Shown: piece by piece, positions 7,374 through 11,620 of the stretch
Numbering within the stretch: position 1 is the first letter of the stretch
Layout: every line of letters starts with the position of its first letter
Origin: Listeria cossartiae subsp. cayugensis
GTDB lineage: Bacteria; Bacillota; Bacilli; Lactobacillales; Listeriaceae
Assembly (NCBI RefSeq): GCF_014229095.1
Contig: NZ_JAARZC010000001.1
Span: 992,001 to 1,056,000 of the forward strand
Length of the DNA: 64,000 bases
Reading direction: 5' to 3'
The notes under the pieces: generated by a model
Seen by the model: the letters and a program-made list of their open reading frames with translations, nothing else
The model's database searches: none
Told to the model about the DNA's origin: nothing
Translations under genes and position numbers: made by a program

Positions 7374-7408
7374 AAAGCCCCTTCTATCCAAGTAGAAGGG
7401 GCTTTTTT
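7374..7408. terminator. Bidirectional terminator between yneF and the methyltransferase gene
   Basis: AAAGCCCCTTCTA pairs perfectly with TAGAAGGGGCTTT around TCCAAG, with T tract and A tract on the two strands. It marks the end of the minus-strand five-gene run. Confidence 0.9.
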
Positions 7409-7409
7409 A

Positions 7410-8141
7410 TTAGTTTTTAGTTGCAGATATAATTAACATCATCGGACGGCGGTATTCATCTTGCATTTCTGGCAAATCTTTTAACTCGGGAGCTGGTTCT
7501 GGTTCGATGACGCTGTTAATTTGGAAGCCGTTTTTTAGCAGTGTTTGGATATAGGTGGTGAGGGTGCGATGATATTTTTGGACATCTTCACCTAGAAAAT
7601 GACTTGTGCGTATCGATTCGGTGAAATAACGGTCGACGGGCCAGTGTAATTTGTTGCCAGCTTCATCTGTATACCAATCTTGGCGACCATCCGCTGTAAA
7701 TACCGGATGCTCTACAGAGAAAATAAAGGAGCCGCCCGTTTTTAAGTTAGTGTGAACTTTTTGACAGATGTCGTTAAAAGAAGCGACATAATGAAGCGCA
7801 AGGGAGCTAAGGATGATATCGTAAGTTTCTGGTTCGATGTCGATATCTTCCATTGCTTTTTGCTCATAATGGACTACGGATGAGGTTGTCTTTTGTTTTG
7901 CTTCGGCTAACATTCGTTCGGATAAATCGATGCCAAGAACTTTTTTTGCACCGTGCTCAGCTGCGTAAATGCAGTGCCAACCAAATCCGCAACCTAAATC
8001 AAGTACTACTTTTTGATGAAAATCAGGGAGTAGCTTTTTAAATTCATGCCATTCTCCGGCTGCTTTTAGCCCTTCTTTGGAACGGGGCATTTGGCTATAT
8101 TGTTCGAAAAATTGTTTGTCATCATATTTATTTTCTTTCAT
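7410..8141 (-). CDS. Class I SAM-dependent methyltransferase
   Basis: A 243-aa cytoplasmic methyltransferase of the Rossmann-fold type (methyltransf_11/25-like). Motif I is VLDLGCGFGWH (about residues 46-56), the acidic end of strand 2 is GIDLSERML, and motif IV is IILSSLALHYV. The closest general families methylate small molecules, but the substrate is not visible. AGAGGA lies 7 nt before the ATG. The gene begins 21 nt after the IbrB-like gene on the same strand with no terminator between, and a terminator follows it. It is therefore probably the last gene of the same transcript, which could make it part of the cassette or just a neighbour. Confidence 0.85.
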   Translation of the reverse strand: MKENKYDDKQFFEQYSQMPRSKEGLKAAGEWHEFKKLLPDFHQKVVLDLGCGFGWHCIYAAEHGAKKVLGIDLSERMLAEAKQKTTSSVVHYEQKAMEDIDIEPETYDIILSSLALHYVASFNDICQKVHTNLKTGGSFIFSVEHPVFTADGRQDWYTDEAGNKLHWPVDRYFTESIRTSHFLGEDVQKYHRTLTTYIQTLLKNGFQINSVIEPEPAPELKDLPEMQDEYRRPMMLIISATKN

Positions 8142-8162: not shown

Positions 8163-8669
8163 TTAATCAGATGCTTGGCTGAATTCTTTATCTAAGAAGA
8201 GGTGAGCAAGGCCGCTCACTTGTTTTAAGCGTAAGATTTCATTGGCATCCATTCCAATATTTTTCATAATCCAACTATCGGACATGCCGCTATCTGTTAG
8301 TTCGCTAACTATATTCGACATTAATTCGACATTATGATATCCGCGTGCTCGATTATGGCGAATAGTCGATGCCATCCGGTTTACGGTATCTTTTTCTAAA
8401 ATGACAACCGGAAGAAATTCATTTTCCCGTTCGCGTATCCGTTTTGAGGTAGTCATAATTGTGTACCGATGAAACCCGTCTATTATTTCATATTTATCTG
8501 TGTTTTCCAAGGGATAGCAGACAATTGGTTGGGTAAAACCGTCTTCCCAAATTGATTTTTCAAGTAGTTTTAATTCGACGGCGGGAACGGTATTGGGATT
8601 ATAATTATTTGCTTGAAGTTTCGAGTAGTGAATGGGTGTGACACTATATACCGGGCTTTTATAATTCAT
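8163..8669 (-). CDS. IbrB-like ParB/sulfiredoxin-fold protein
   Basis: A 168-aa protein with an N-terminal ParB-like domain. Residues about 24-70 have the pattern of the fold (NPNTV ... LLEKSIWEDGFTQPIV ... YEIIDGFHRYTI). DGFHRY corresponds to the nucleotide-binding GERR/GGCHR loop of ParB and sulfiredoxin, and IRHNRARG (about 104-111) to the ENxxR motif. The second half looks like a small helical, possibly helix-turn-helix region (MSDSWIMKNIGMDANEILRLK). In enterobacteria such proteins (IbrB) are paired with a PP-loop protein (IbrA) and were described as regulators of prophage-borne eib genes. Here the IbrA-like gene lies 9 nt upstream and the ribosome binding site GAGGTGA overlaps its stop, so translation is coupled. 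Biochemical activity is unknown. Confidence 0.8.
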   Translation of the reverse strand: MNYKSPVYSVTPIHYSKLQANNYNPNTVPAVELKLLEKSIWEDGFTQPIVCYPLENTDKYEIIDGFHRYTIMTTSKRIRERENEFLPVVILEKDTVNRMASTIRHNRARGYHNVELMSNIVSELTDSGMSDSWIMKNIGMDANEILRLKQVSGLAHLFLDKEFSQASD

Positions 8670-8678
8670 TTTATCACC

Positions 8679-9983
8679 TCATAAAATATTATTATATTTC
8701 TCTAATGCGTTTTTTCGTTTCTCTAATTCTAATTTTGTTTGACCGAATCCCATATATTTGCAGGTATAATCATTTTTTAAAATGGCGATACACATTCGTT
8801 TATATGTAGGGACACTGGCGAATTCTTTGATTTTTAGGTCGTCAGGATATTCTTTAAAACGAACGATTTCCATTGGGTTTGTATAGACGCGATTGCTTTT
8901 TGGTGTGCCGAGGAAATCTGCTTGGACATCTAAATTTTTTAATTCTTCCACTGTTTCTACTTTTAAGGCACCACCTTTTTCGGTCCAGTAGGTGATGCTC
9001 GTTTTAAATTTTTTTAAATAACGTTCTCTTGTGTAGCTTGGTAGGGTGGTCAGTAGGAATTCTAAATATGATTTCCACGTGTGATTTTCCGGTAGTTTAA
9101 TTTCTTTCCAAGCCATTGCGGAAGTACCGCCGTATATCGCAGTAAAATTAGCGCCATTTACTCTGCCGACGAGCTTGGACCAAAGATCTGGTTCAATAAC
9201 GCGATATAGTTTAAGACTTTCTTTTGCGGAATCGTTAAAAGGGCTTGCAACACGCATATCGTGGACGGTTAGGCCGGCTTGGTAAAATAAGTCATAAATT
9301 TTATTGTAAGACCAATTGAATTTAGCATTTGCAACCCAAACATCTTCTACATGCCAGTCGTGGATGGGATAGGCATTAAAGATATTTTTGGAGATTTCGG
9401 TAGTCCAATTGTATGCTTGATACATGCGCTCTTTTTTATGAATAGCATTATAGCGATTTAGCGATTCTTGCTGACGAATGCCAATTAAAGCGATCGTTTT
9501 TTTGGCGTTGTTTTTAGTATGTAGCCATTGAATGATTTTTTTATTAAATTCGTAATCCCAAAGATTTTCAAAATCAAAATCGAATGGGGCGTTATCTTCA
9601 TTAATCACGTGCGGAAAAGTAGGCATTTCTCTTACCCAAATAGCTTGCTTGGACTTTTCCCATGGTTTCCAGTGATCCGTGAACATCGATACAGCTGATT
9701 GTGCTGCGATAGGGAGGCAACACCAAAGTGGTTCGATAATATCTAAATTAGAAGTTAGCATTTCTGTAACAAAATCAGTCGTGGCAGAGTACTGGCCTTC
9801 ATAATCCAAATGGTAAACATAAACTTTCCTGCGAATATTATTTTTACGCATATAATCAATCAAAAGGTGGAGCATGACCCCGCTATCTTTACCACCTGAA
9901 AAGGAGACGATGATATTATCAAACTCGGAAAAAATTACTTCCATTCTTTCTTGGGAAGCATCAAAGACTGTCTTAGAAAGCAT
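8679..9983 (-). CDS. IbrA-like PP-loop ATPase / DUF3440 protein
   Basis: A 434-aa protein. The N-terminal half is a PAPS-reductase-like PP-loop domain: SGGKDS at residues 29-34 binds ATP, and YHLDYEGQY around residue 60 continues the fold. The C-terminal part (from about residue 170) matches the DUF3440 layout as I know it from IbrA, with GIRQQESLNRY, YPIHDWHVEDVWVANAKFNWSYNKIYDL and MRVASPFND. I do not see the ECGLH-type catalytic cysteine motif of true PAPS reductases, so sulfate reduction is unlikely. DndC/SspD of DNA phosphorothioation use the same fold to activate a sulfur transfer, an analogy only. The start overlaps the end of the helicase gene by 11 nt and the stop is 9 nt from the IbrB-like gene, so the genes form one unit. 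Confidence 0.82.
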   Translation of the reverse strand: MLSKTVFDASQERMEVIFSEFDNIIVSFSGGKDSGVMLHLLIDYMRKNNIRRKVYVYHLDYEGQYSATTDFVTEMLTSNLDIIEPLWCCLPIAAQSAVSMFTDHWKPWEKSKQAIWVREMPTFPHVINEDNAPFDFDFENLWDYEFNKKIIQWLHTKNNAKKTIALIGIRQQESLNRYNAIHKKERMYQAYNWTTEISKNIFNAYPIHDWHVEDVWVANAKFNWSYNKIYDLFYQAGLTVHDMRVASPFNDSAKESLKLYRVIEPDLWSKLVGRVNGANFTAIYGGTSAMAWKEIKLPENHTWKSYLEFLLTTLPSYTRERYLKKFKTSITYWTEKGGALKVETVEELKNLDVQADFLGTPKSNRVYTNPMEIVRFKEYPDDLKIKEFASVPTYKRMCIAILKNDYTCKYMGFGQTKLELEKRKNALEKYNNIL

Positions 9984-11172
9984 CCATTATCACCTCAAAA
10001 GAATTTTTTTGTGAGAGCTCTTTTTTGAATTCTTGCAATAGGTTCGTTTTTTTAGAAATATTTGTGTCGATAAGGGAGTCGAGGCCGACGTTTCCGCTTA
10101 AATCATGGTAGTAGCAGTCTTGCGTTTGGCCTGTTCGGTAAATACGTCTTTCGGATTGGTCGCGCTGTGAATAATCAAATGTTTTATCGAAGTAAATAAT
10201 TTGGTTATAAAATTGTAAATTGAGTCCATAAGAAGATTTGGCGAAAGTAGTAATTTTGACATTAGGAAATGCTTTTTGTAAGGCTTCTTCTGAACGTTTA
10301 TATTTACAAAAAATAATGGTTGTTTCTTCTTTTCCGGCTACTAGAGATTCGGTAATAGTGAACTTTTCAGAGGAGAGGCAATAACAATGTTGCATTACTT
10401 GGGACATTTCTAAAAAGTTAATATTTATGGTGTATGCCGCTGCTTTTTGGAGATAATCATCTTTAATTTCGTAATATTGCTTTAAAAACGCTTCATCGAT
10501 GGAAAAATCATGGCGAATATAATGCCATTTGATTGCTAATTCATGTGAAGAACTAAAAATAAAAGGGGAGATTAATTCATAGAGATAATCTAAATTATGA
10601 TATTTTTTAATGATGTCCATCGATTGCTGCTTCGTTTGCGTTAGTTGTGTAATTGTTACATATTCACAAAATGTCTTTTTGAACTGCGAAAAACTTAGAT
10701 TTAATATTTTGGGGGATAAAAATTCTAGTTGAGACCATAAATCTAAAATATTTCGACTGAGTGGAGTTCCATTCATAATTAACTTGTACTTTGCAAAGCG
10801 GGAAAGTTTGATGGCTCGCTGTGTTCGAAGCGCATGGATATTTTTAATTTTTAAACTTTCATCCATTATAATGTAGCTATTAGTTGATTTTTTGAGTTTT
10901 TCTCGACAATAGAGATATAAACGATCTGAGTTTGAGAGGGATTCGATACCGATAATTTCTTGCGGAAAATCATAACCCCATTTGCGTATTTCGGCTGCGA
11001 GGTTCTCTTTGGTTTGGAAGGGGGTAATCCATAAAACATAATCTGGTTTCACATCACTGATTAATTCGCAAGCTACACGCGTTTTCCCACTGCCGGGTCG
11101 CATAAATAATGCGCCAACTTTATATTTTTTAAGTTTTTGTAGAGCTTGTTTTTGATTATCTAATAAGGTCAT
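9973..11172 (-). CDS. Compact SNF2-type DEAD-box helicase
   Basis: A 399-aa superfamily 2 ATPase with a minimal two-lobe core. Walker A is MRPGSGKT (residues 24-31). Motif II is IIMDESLKIKN (101-111), the SNF2 DEAHKLKN pattern with His replaced by Leu. Motif III is MNGTPLSRN (133-141), and motif VI is QRDQSERRIYRTGQ (336-349), also of SNF2 type. Typical SNF2 remodelers are much longer; short forms like this occur in phage and mobile-element modules. Its start overlaps the upstream 124-aa gene by 17 nt and its stop overlaps the IbrA-like gene by 11 nt, a sign of translational coupling. It probably moves on DNA, giving the PP-loop/ParB pair access to a DNA target; that role is inference. Confidence 0.8.
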   Translation of the reverse strand: MTLLDNQKQALQKLKKYKVGALFMRPGSGKTRVACELISDVKPDYVLWITPFQTKENLAAEIRKWGYDFPQEIIGIESLSNSDRLYLYCREKLKKSTNSYIIMDESLKIKNIHALRTQRAIKLSRFAKYKLIMNGTPLSRNILDLWSQLEFLSPKILNLSFSQFKKTFCEYVTITQLTQTKQQSMDIIKKYHNLDYLYELISPFIFSSSHELAIKWHYIRHDFSIDEAFLKQYYEIKDDYLQKAAAYTININFLEMSQVMQHCYCLSSEKFTITESLVAGKEETTIIFCKYKRSEEALQKAFPNVKITTFAKSSYGLNLQFYNQIIYFDKTFDYSQRDQSERRIYRTGQTQDCYYHDLSGNVGLDSLIDTNISKKTNLLQEFKKELSQKNSFEVIMDAF

Positions 11173-11530
11173 GTTGAATTATCACATCTTTTTCTATTTT
11201 TTTAGGGATATGTGTGCGAACTTTAATAATGCTTTCATTTACTTTTTTTGTTTGGAAAAATTGCATTATCGCTTCGCTTTCTTGCTTGAAAAGGAGTAAC
11301 ATTTTCGCGGCACTAATTTCTTTTTTTTCGGTATGTTTTTTTAGAAAGAAGTTCCACGTGTCTGGAAAATAGAAATAACTGTACTCAGGTGAAATAGAAA
11401 ATACCATTTTTTTCGGGAGCAAGAAAAAATAACCTTGAAATTCACTTTTTGAAGGCATTTCAATAATGGTTTGTTTGTCCCATTGTTCTACACGTTCGCT
11501 ATATATATAAATTTTGTGCCATTTTACCAT
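11156..11530 (-). CDS. Orphan 124-aa protein, first gene of the cassette
   Basis: I do not recognise this protein. It is 124 aa, soluble-looking, rich in Lys, Glu, Phe and Tyr, with no cysteine and no signal peptide or membrane helix. The middle (about 27-65) is aromatic-rich (YFFLLPKKM, YSYFYFPDTWNFF) and the C-terminal half looks helical, then ends in a basic strand (IIKVRTHIPKKI). It overlaps the helicase start by 17 nt, so it is clearly part of the same operon and is likely a partner of the helicase. The start ATG has GGAG 12 nt upstream. Base composition is markedly AT-rich. Confidence 0.65.
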   Translation of the reverse strand: MVKWHKIYIYSERVEQWDKQTIIEMPSKSEFQGYFFLLPKKMVFSISPEYSYFYFPDTWNFFLKKHTEKKEISAAKMLLLFKQESEAIMQFFQTKKVNESIIKVRTHIPKKIEKDVIIQHDLIR

Positions 11531-11591: not shown

Positions 11592-11620
11592 ATTTTATCA
11601 CAAATTATGTTGGTGTATAA
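11592..11620 (-). promoter_or_regulatory. Possible promoter of the helicase/IbrAB cassette; AT-rich gap
   Basis: On the minus strand TTATAC (11620-11615) and TAAAAT (11597-11592) are 17 nt apart, about 60 nt before the first gene of the cassette. The 272-nt gap between that gene and pyrH (11531-11802) is very AT-rich with long T runs. On the plus strand TTTGTA and TAGAAT about 16 nt apart (near 11715-11742) may serve pyrH. I see no repeat or attachment site in the gap. Confidence 0.4.

Follow-up and report, generated by a model that had tools for sequence, protein, structure and literature searches.

A compact operon of Listeria cossartiae subsp. cayugensis, a close relative of L. monocytogenes, encodes four proteins that all match phage families. 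Together they form a phage-type module (small beta protein, SNF2 ATPase, IbrA, IbrB) whose synteny extends over many Listeria species, where it is maintained as a working unit under strong purifying selection. The operon lies in the 64,000-nucleotide (nt) stretch analysed here (contig NZ_JAARZC010000001.1, positions 992,001 to 1,056,000; hereafter the window, whose numbering is used for all coordinates). As to function, we favour, with a probability of about 40%, a module that came from phage, was domesticated in Listeria and performs an ATP-dependent modification of nucleic acid, most likely of duplex DNA. Our search of one open-licence library found no account of this four-gene module, and its likely domestication, together with the pattern of swappable partners described below, makes up the main interest of the locus.

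The operon and its conservation in Listeria

The four genes, with protein lengths in amino acids (aa), are:
11156..11530, minus strand: small accessory protein, 124 aa; beta-rich domain and C-terminal helix; phrog_27058; lmo1312 by position
9973..11172, minus strand: compact SNF2-type superfamily 2 (SF2) ATPase, 399 aa; PF00176 match; lmo1311-like
8679..9983, minus strand: IbrA-like PP-loop protein with C-terminal DUF3440, 434 aa; lmo1310-like
8163..8669, minus strand: IbrB-like ParB/sulfiredoxin-fold protein, 168 aa; PF02195, phrog_2159; lmo1309-like

The lmo numbers 1309-1311 for operon genes follow excerpts of two papers (PMC5736727, PMC7020466). The small-protein and SNF2 genes overlap by 17 nt (11156-11172), the SNF2 and IbrA genes by 11 nt (9973-9983), and IbrA and IbrB are separated by 9 nt (8670-8678), exactly as an original prediction made from the sequence alone had described them. 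Its domain calls also hold, as all exceed the model cut-offs: SNF2-rel_dom PF00176 at 48.6 bits (cut-off 24.9), DUF3440 PF11922 at 285.9 (25) and PAPS_reduct PF01507 at 48.3 (22.5) in IbrA, and ParB_N PF02195 at 31.7 (26.3) in IbrB, which further matches phrog_2159 (E 3.7e-72). The 124-aa protein, previously taken for an orphan, matches a phage family (phrog_27058, E 8e-10).

All four genes occur together, with the methyltransferase next to them, in 15 of the 25 genomes of the genus. IbrA is read in a single frame in 14 of these and is split over two frames in the fifteenth (G004). Relatives of IbrA are present in 18/25 Listeria genomes and the small protein in 15/25, the latter being found in none of 11 genomes from other genera of the family. 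Listeria monocytogenes NCTC7974 carries the same genes in the same order and place (IbrA 94% identical), with one extra gene, DUF2785, after the methyltransferase. That pyrH adjoins the operon was observed directly for the window, for NCTC7974 and for G010 and G004. Nine operon-less genomes hold no trace of the operon within 6-7 kb upstream of pyrH; the contig of G023 is too short to tell. More broadly, DUF3440 was detected in 3/299 Bacilli genomes, the window's own among them (leaving 2/298 others), and in 2/14 control genomes (E. coli and Lactococcus lactis).

Ratios of nonsynonymous to synonymous substitution (dN/dS, Nei-Gojobori) are quoted against G002 and G015, the only two relatives in which every one of the four genes has a dS under 0.7; dS was saturated in many of the compared pairs. 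They were 0.011 and 0.018 for IbrA, 0.008 and 0.019 for SNF2, 0.019 and 0.024 for IbrB, and 0.107 and 0.085 for the small protein. The nine compared relatives (eight for the small protein), a set that does not include G004, showed no in-frame stop in the four genes. As 15 of the 25 genomes hold all four genes and dN/dS is far below 1, the operon is not a chance arrangement.

Other IbrA-IbrB pairs also exist in the genus. G003 and G009 have a 72-73% identical pair elsewhere in the chromosome, together with a distant helicase. At L283:7971-11382 and L284:8587-11702, in two other Listeria species, a different version with a helicase (28-29% identical), IbrA (72-73%) and IbrB (72%) occupies another chromosomal site; in L283, what looks by eye like a helix-turn-helix gene replaces the small protein. 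More distant pairs in G008 and G004 (L285:8187-10446, L286:4746-7040) are each followed by a small gene that appears GNAT-like by eye.

Relatives in phages, plasmids and other bacteria

The combination of genes is not unique to this locus: outside Listeria it is found mostly in phages and other mobile DNA, and the same four genes occur in phages of Streptococcus, Lactobacillus and Fusobacterium. Streptococcus phage CHPC877 and Lactobacillus phage AQ113 have the window's gene order and overlapping genes, with IbrA 50-53% and IbrB 61-63% identical. Their modules are phage-borne and lie between the endolysin and Cro or antirepressor genes, and no methyltransferase is annotated after them. Streptococcus phage CHPC1148 has the set with one additional small gene, and Fusobacterium phage phiFN37 has it in a changed order. 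The small proteins of these four phages were recognised by profile search. Flavobacterium phage FCV-1 and its relatives share the set as well, but with IbrB ahead of IbrA and with a small protein that is only remotely related (hhalign probability 90.6, E 1.3e-6). The phiFN37 module (L004:11168-15056) adjoins a queuine tRNA-ribosyltransferase-type (TGT-type) gene, a queuosine-precursor transporter and two further ParB-like genes.

IbrA relatives were found in 218 of 50,697 phage records, 66 of them covering at least 80% of IbrA, and in 598 of 72,556 plasmid records, mostly from Klebsiella or Escherichia. In trees, the same rows lie nearest to IbrA and to IbrB of Listeria, namely a viral contig (L132), a genome (L065) and a plasmid (L044), and both fall inside clades that mix viral, plasmid and genome rows. 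Branch support (SH-aLRT) for the nearest steps is moderate (75-97 for IbrA, 70-77 for IbrB), and these were quick, thinned trees built from roughly one third of the viral and genome rows and some selected ones, the long-branch row L005 being left out. The Listeria module likely came from a phage and was then domesticated, and the operon looks like a domesticated phage module and not like a patchy defence island.

The two-protein core is also known from E. coli, where IbrA-IbrB and the K-12 pair YbdN-YbdM are encoded side by side on one strand, IbrA before IbrB, and share the invariant motifs of the window proteins (IbrA 32-33% identical, IbrB 42-47%). Unlike in the window, no SNF2 or small-protein gene adjoins them in these records.

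To describe the wider family, we sampled the best 80 matches of each scan (80 genome loci and two viral sets, with viral contigs as filed in IMG/VR), a choice by likeness that leans to close relatives, and dropped loci cut by contig ends before counting. With more than 4 kb on each side, IbrB lay near IbrA in 49/49 genome loci (one of which, L052, may be a Listeria) and in 48/48 and 35/35 loci of the two viral sets, which share some contigs. Partners were counted within 3.5 kb and on the same strand in a set of 140 loci (15 hand-picked named, 70 viral and 55 genome) with more than 3 kb on each side, from which repeated IbrA proteins and Listeria loci had been removed. An SNF2 partner was a match to our local profile at E 1e-5, other helicases being uncounted, and the count for the ectoine-synthase-like family EctC used a profile of that domain alone (65 matches), since fused proteins draw the profile into ParB.

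IbrB accompanies IbrA in 140/140 of these loci. The other partners vary: SNF2 is found in 50 loci, a GNAT-like protein in 41, EctC in 28 and the small protein or a remote relative in 23, and GNAT-like and EctC genes are never in the same locus. No searched partner was present in 35 loci (5 named, 16 viral, 14 genome; for example L104, L106, L107, L108, L027 and L134). Of 85 SNF2 matches, 84 lie no more than 1 kb from IbrA. Across 60 loci, with further Listeria relatives left out so that Listeria counts once, the IbrA and IbrB distance matrices correlate at r 0.55 (the highest of 999 permutations gave 0.226), whereas SNF2 distances correlate weakly with those of IbrA and IbrB (r 0.24 and 0.26). 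The IbrA-IbrB core is thus tight, and the SNF2 motor is present at some loci and missing from others. Genes for Toprim/DnaB, DnaB, SSB, beta clamp, YqaJ and C5 DNA methylase recur as neighbours, each in 7-22 of 248 loci.

EctC is a clear relative of ectoine synthase (E 1e-32 and 2e-35; 7e-22 against the PDB ectoine synthase) and in Mycobacterium phage Gaia is fused to a ParB domain. Pfam support for the GNAT-like family is weak, its representative scoring 16.9 bits against a cut-off of 20.7 (E 0.0077). At two phage loci (L041:7299-8195, L040:7302-7691), the ectoine-synthase-like cupin, which has a conserved EctC-like sequence pattern, lies close to the ParB-fold partner of IbrA or is fused to it. 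In phages Gaia (L041) and D4276, the genes called 'PAPS reductase' belong to the IbrA/DUF3440 type and have an adjoining ParB-like gene; an excerpt of PMC6145125 discusses them with sulfate assimilation.

What the module may do

The SNF2 profile (A3, which contained two ill-fitting rows, L042 and L051) matches the solved Snf2/Rad54 helicase 1z63 at E 8.9e-36, and the alignment shows GSGKT, DES and QxxxRxxRxGQ stretches, which we take to be helicase motifs. Domain searches found no nuclease domain in this protein, and no nuclease or other effector domain in any of the four. The nearest folds to IbrA are FAD synthase, the ATP sulfurylase CysD and reductases of adenosine phosphosulfate (APS) and phosphoadenosine phosphosulfate (PAPS). 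Its PP-loop ATP site is invariant (234/234 rows), while its cysteines are only nearly so: C89 is kept in 219/234 rows and C408 in 215/234, no cysteine is invariant, and YbdN of E. coli K-12 has alanine at the C89 position. IbrB has a second invariant site, DGxHR...TxRHNxAxGxH, with D64, G65, H67, R68, T102, R104, H105, N106, A108, G110 and H112 identical in 214/214 rows. Its C-terminal helical stretch gave only weak matches, to designed helical repeats, and may bind DNA. As a ParB/RepB/Spo0J partition protein, IbrB was rejected (TIGR00180 25.2 vs a cut-off of 58.45; Noc TIGR04285 30.4 vs 315).

We favour a modification of nucleic acid because of these two invariant nucleotide sites, the motor of duplex-DNA type, the tailoring-type enzymes found at other loci, the replication and recombination neighbours, and the lack of an effector. 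From these, we infer a substrate, product and subunit roles as follows. IbrA would adenylylate a group on its target, either a phosphate or a base carbonyl, and thereby activate it. For IbrB we envisage binding or hydrolysis of nucleotide, or a kinase activity like that of SerK/SbnI, and the positioning of the reaction on its substrate. The SNF2 motor would travel along double-stranded DNA and give access to it, the small protein serving as adaptor. In Listeria, the mark would serve the host, for example through altered expression or DNA protection. The presence of a GNAT-like or EctC partner instead at the IbrA-IbrB core of other elements points to a final mark whose chemistry differs between elements. 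More tentatively, IbrA-IbrB might be the core of a widespread and unrecognised class of phage DNA modification, with swappable partners (SNF2 and adaptor, GNAT, ectoine-synthase-like cyclase) fixing the final form of the mark, one version of which a single Listeria branch would have domesticated as a core chromosomal trait; we regard this as doubtful.

If it were true, phage DUF3440-type 'PAPS reductase / cysH' genes, which have been reported as sulfur-metabolism helpers, would belong to a different machine, as the sampled loci always pair them with a ParB-fold partner. IbrA also differs from CysH, its common phage annotation, in scoring far under the cut-offs of curated models (TIGR02057 14.7 vs 254.2, TIGR00434 16.3 vs 165.1, PRK02090 21 vs 154). 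The link to ectoine-synthase-like and GNAT-like proteins is unexpected and offers concrete chemistry, and both the intact, strongly selected Listeria operon and the two-gene ybdN-ybdM of E. coli K-12 would be tractable carriers.

Several observations weigh against a modification of nucleic acid. We know of no modified base or backbone in any carrier, and the nucleic-acid substrate is itself deduced. EctC and GNAT could equally belong to a small-molecule pathway, and FAD synthase and CysD, the closest folds to IbrA, use small molecules. No DNA-modification gene lies beside E. coli ybdNM. The motor accompanies the core at only 50/140 loci and its distances correlate only weakly with those of the core, and 35/140 loci have no searched partner at all. 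A TGT-type gene, of the kind that a Dpd system would have as DpdA, adjoins the module in no more than phiFN37 and two further viral contigs, and the open reading frame and domain listing of the window operon contains none.

The main rival, possible though on the doubtful side, is that the module is a co-activator of the IbrAB type, which would bind DNA and use SNF2 remodelling to alter prophage or host gene expression, leaving nucleic acid without a covalent mark. E. coli IbrAB reportedly activates prophage eib genes, to judge by the title of Sandt 2002. Phage records annotate IbrA-IbrB as a co-activator of prophage gene expression, the C-terminal stretch of IbrB may contact DNA, and antirepressor or Cro-like genes lie nearby in three phages examined. 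However, an invariant PP-loop ATP site would be unusual in a plain regulator, and EctC, and probably the GNAT-like partner too, are enzymes. A role as co-activator does not exclude a mark on DNA.

It is unlikely that IbrB (as a SerK/SbnI-like kinase) and IbrA (as an adenylyltransferase) instead make or activate an amino-acid-like metabolite, tailored elsewhere by GNAT or EctC. The IbrB profile does match SbnI (E 0.016) and free serine kinase (E 0.13), EctC is related to ectoine synthase and ParB-fused in Gaia, and the closest folds to IbrA work on FMN and sulfate. Yet ParB and Noc structures outscore the kinases for IbrB, a motor of duplex-DNA type lies within 3.5 kb in 50/140 loci, and replication and recombination genes recur as neighbours.

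The original prediction proposed a DNA-targeting defence, anti-element or sulfur-modification system, and this is supported only in part, defence and phosphorothioation being less likely for the reasons that follow. An anti-phage defence or toxin-antitoxin operon seems quite improbable. An excerpt of PMC7020466 counts lmo1309-1310, on the strength of association, among putative core toxin-antitoxin pairs and describes residues that co-vary between the two partners, and the SNF2 protein partially matches the ZorD, DpdE and DrmD models (that for DpdE having no curated cut-off). It was nonetheless rejected as Zorya type I ZorD (52.9 bits vs 1500) or DISARM DrmD (32.4 vs 950). Domain searches gave no nuclease or other effector domain in the four proteins, purifying selection and cross-species synteny are unlike a fast-turnover defence locus, and phages are themselves carriers of the module.

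It is very improbable that the module phosphorothioates DNA in the manner of Dnd/Ssp/BREX-4, IbrA being the sulfur transferase. The catalytic cysteines of DndC are strictly conserved. A PAPS-reductase-like enzyme is common to the module and to Dnd (DndBCDE) and BREX type 4, IbrA gives partial DndC matches, and two of its cysteines are nearly invariant. However, no cysteine is invariant, the DndC model TIGR03183 gives 28.6 bits against 290.4, DUF3440 is present instead, and the annotated flanks in L. monocytogenes (pyrH, frr, tkt, yneF etc.) include no dnd genes. Excerpts of PMC10853773 and PMC12839542 describe ParB-fold DndB and SWI2/SNF2-derived parts in Dnd systems, the former classing DndB too as ParB-fold.

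Transcript and chromosomal surroundings

The four-gene set sits between the yneF/tkt genes and pyrH. Its further features are:
11592..11619, minus strand: promoter-like site with an extended -10, ahead of the operon; supported only by a match to the consensus, no better than chance
7410..8141, minus strand: class I S-adenosylmethionine (SAM)-dependent methyltransferase, 243 aa; probably transcribed as a fifth gene with the other four
7374..7405, no strand assigned: terminator-like hairpin of 13-14 pairs between the operon and the converging yneF gene

The transcript probably has five genes, continuing into the methyltransferase, as this gene starts 21 nt past the IbrB stop and the strongest hairpin lies beyond it. 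The terminator scan found 6 sites where 4.0 were expected, this hairpin having the longest stem, and the promoter scan found 18 promoter-like sites against 16.4 expected in shuffles. An AGGAG stretch precedes the first ATG of the operon. The methyltransferase adjoins IbrB also in Listeria relatives, and its family formed a cluster of 14 loci when neighbour genes were clustered; in the G002 copy, our script counted one in-frame stop.

Some database records of the operon appear to be misfiled. Three short, unannotated 'Listeria phage' records (OR848903.1, OR848947.1 and OR847553.1) have 85-88% DNA identity to the operon, and look like host chromosome fragments filed as phage because one reaches into the methyltransferase gene, to at least window position 8000. 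Similarly, the 407-kb L. monocytogenes 'plasmid' NZ_LR134403.1, which carries pyrH, frr and DNA polymerase III alpha as well as the operon, looks like a piece of chromosome.

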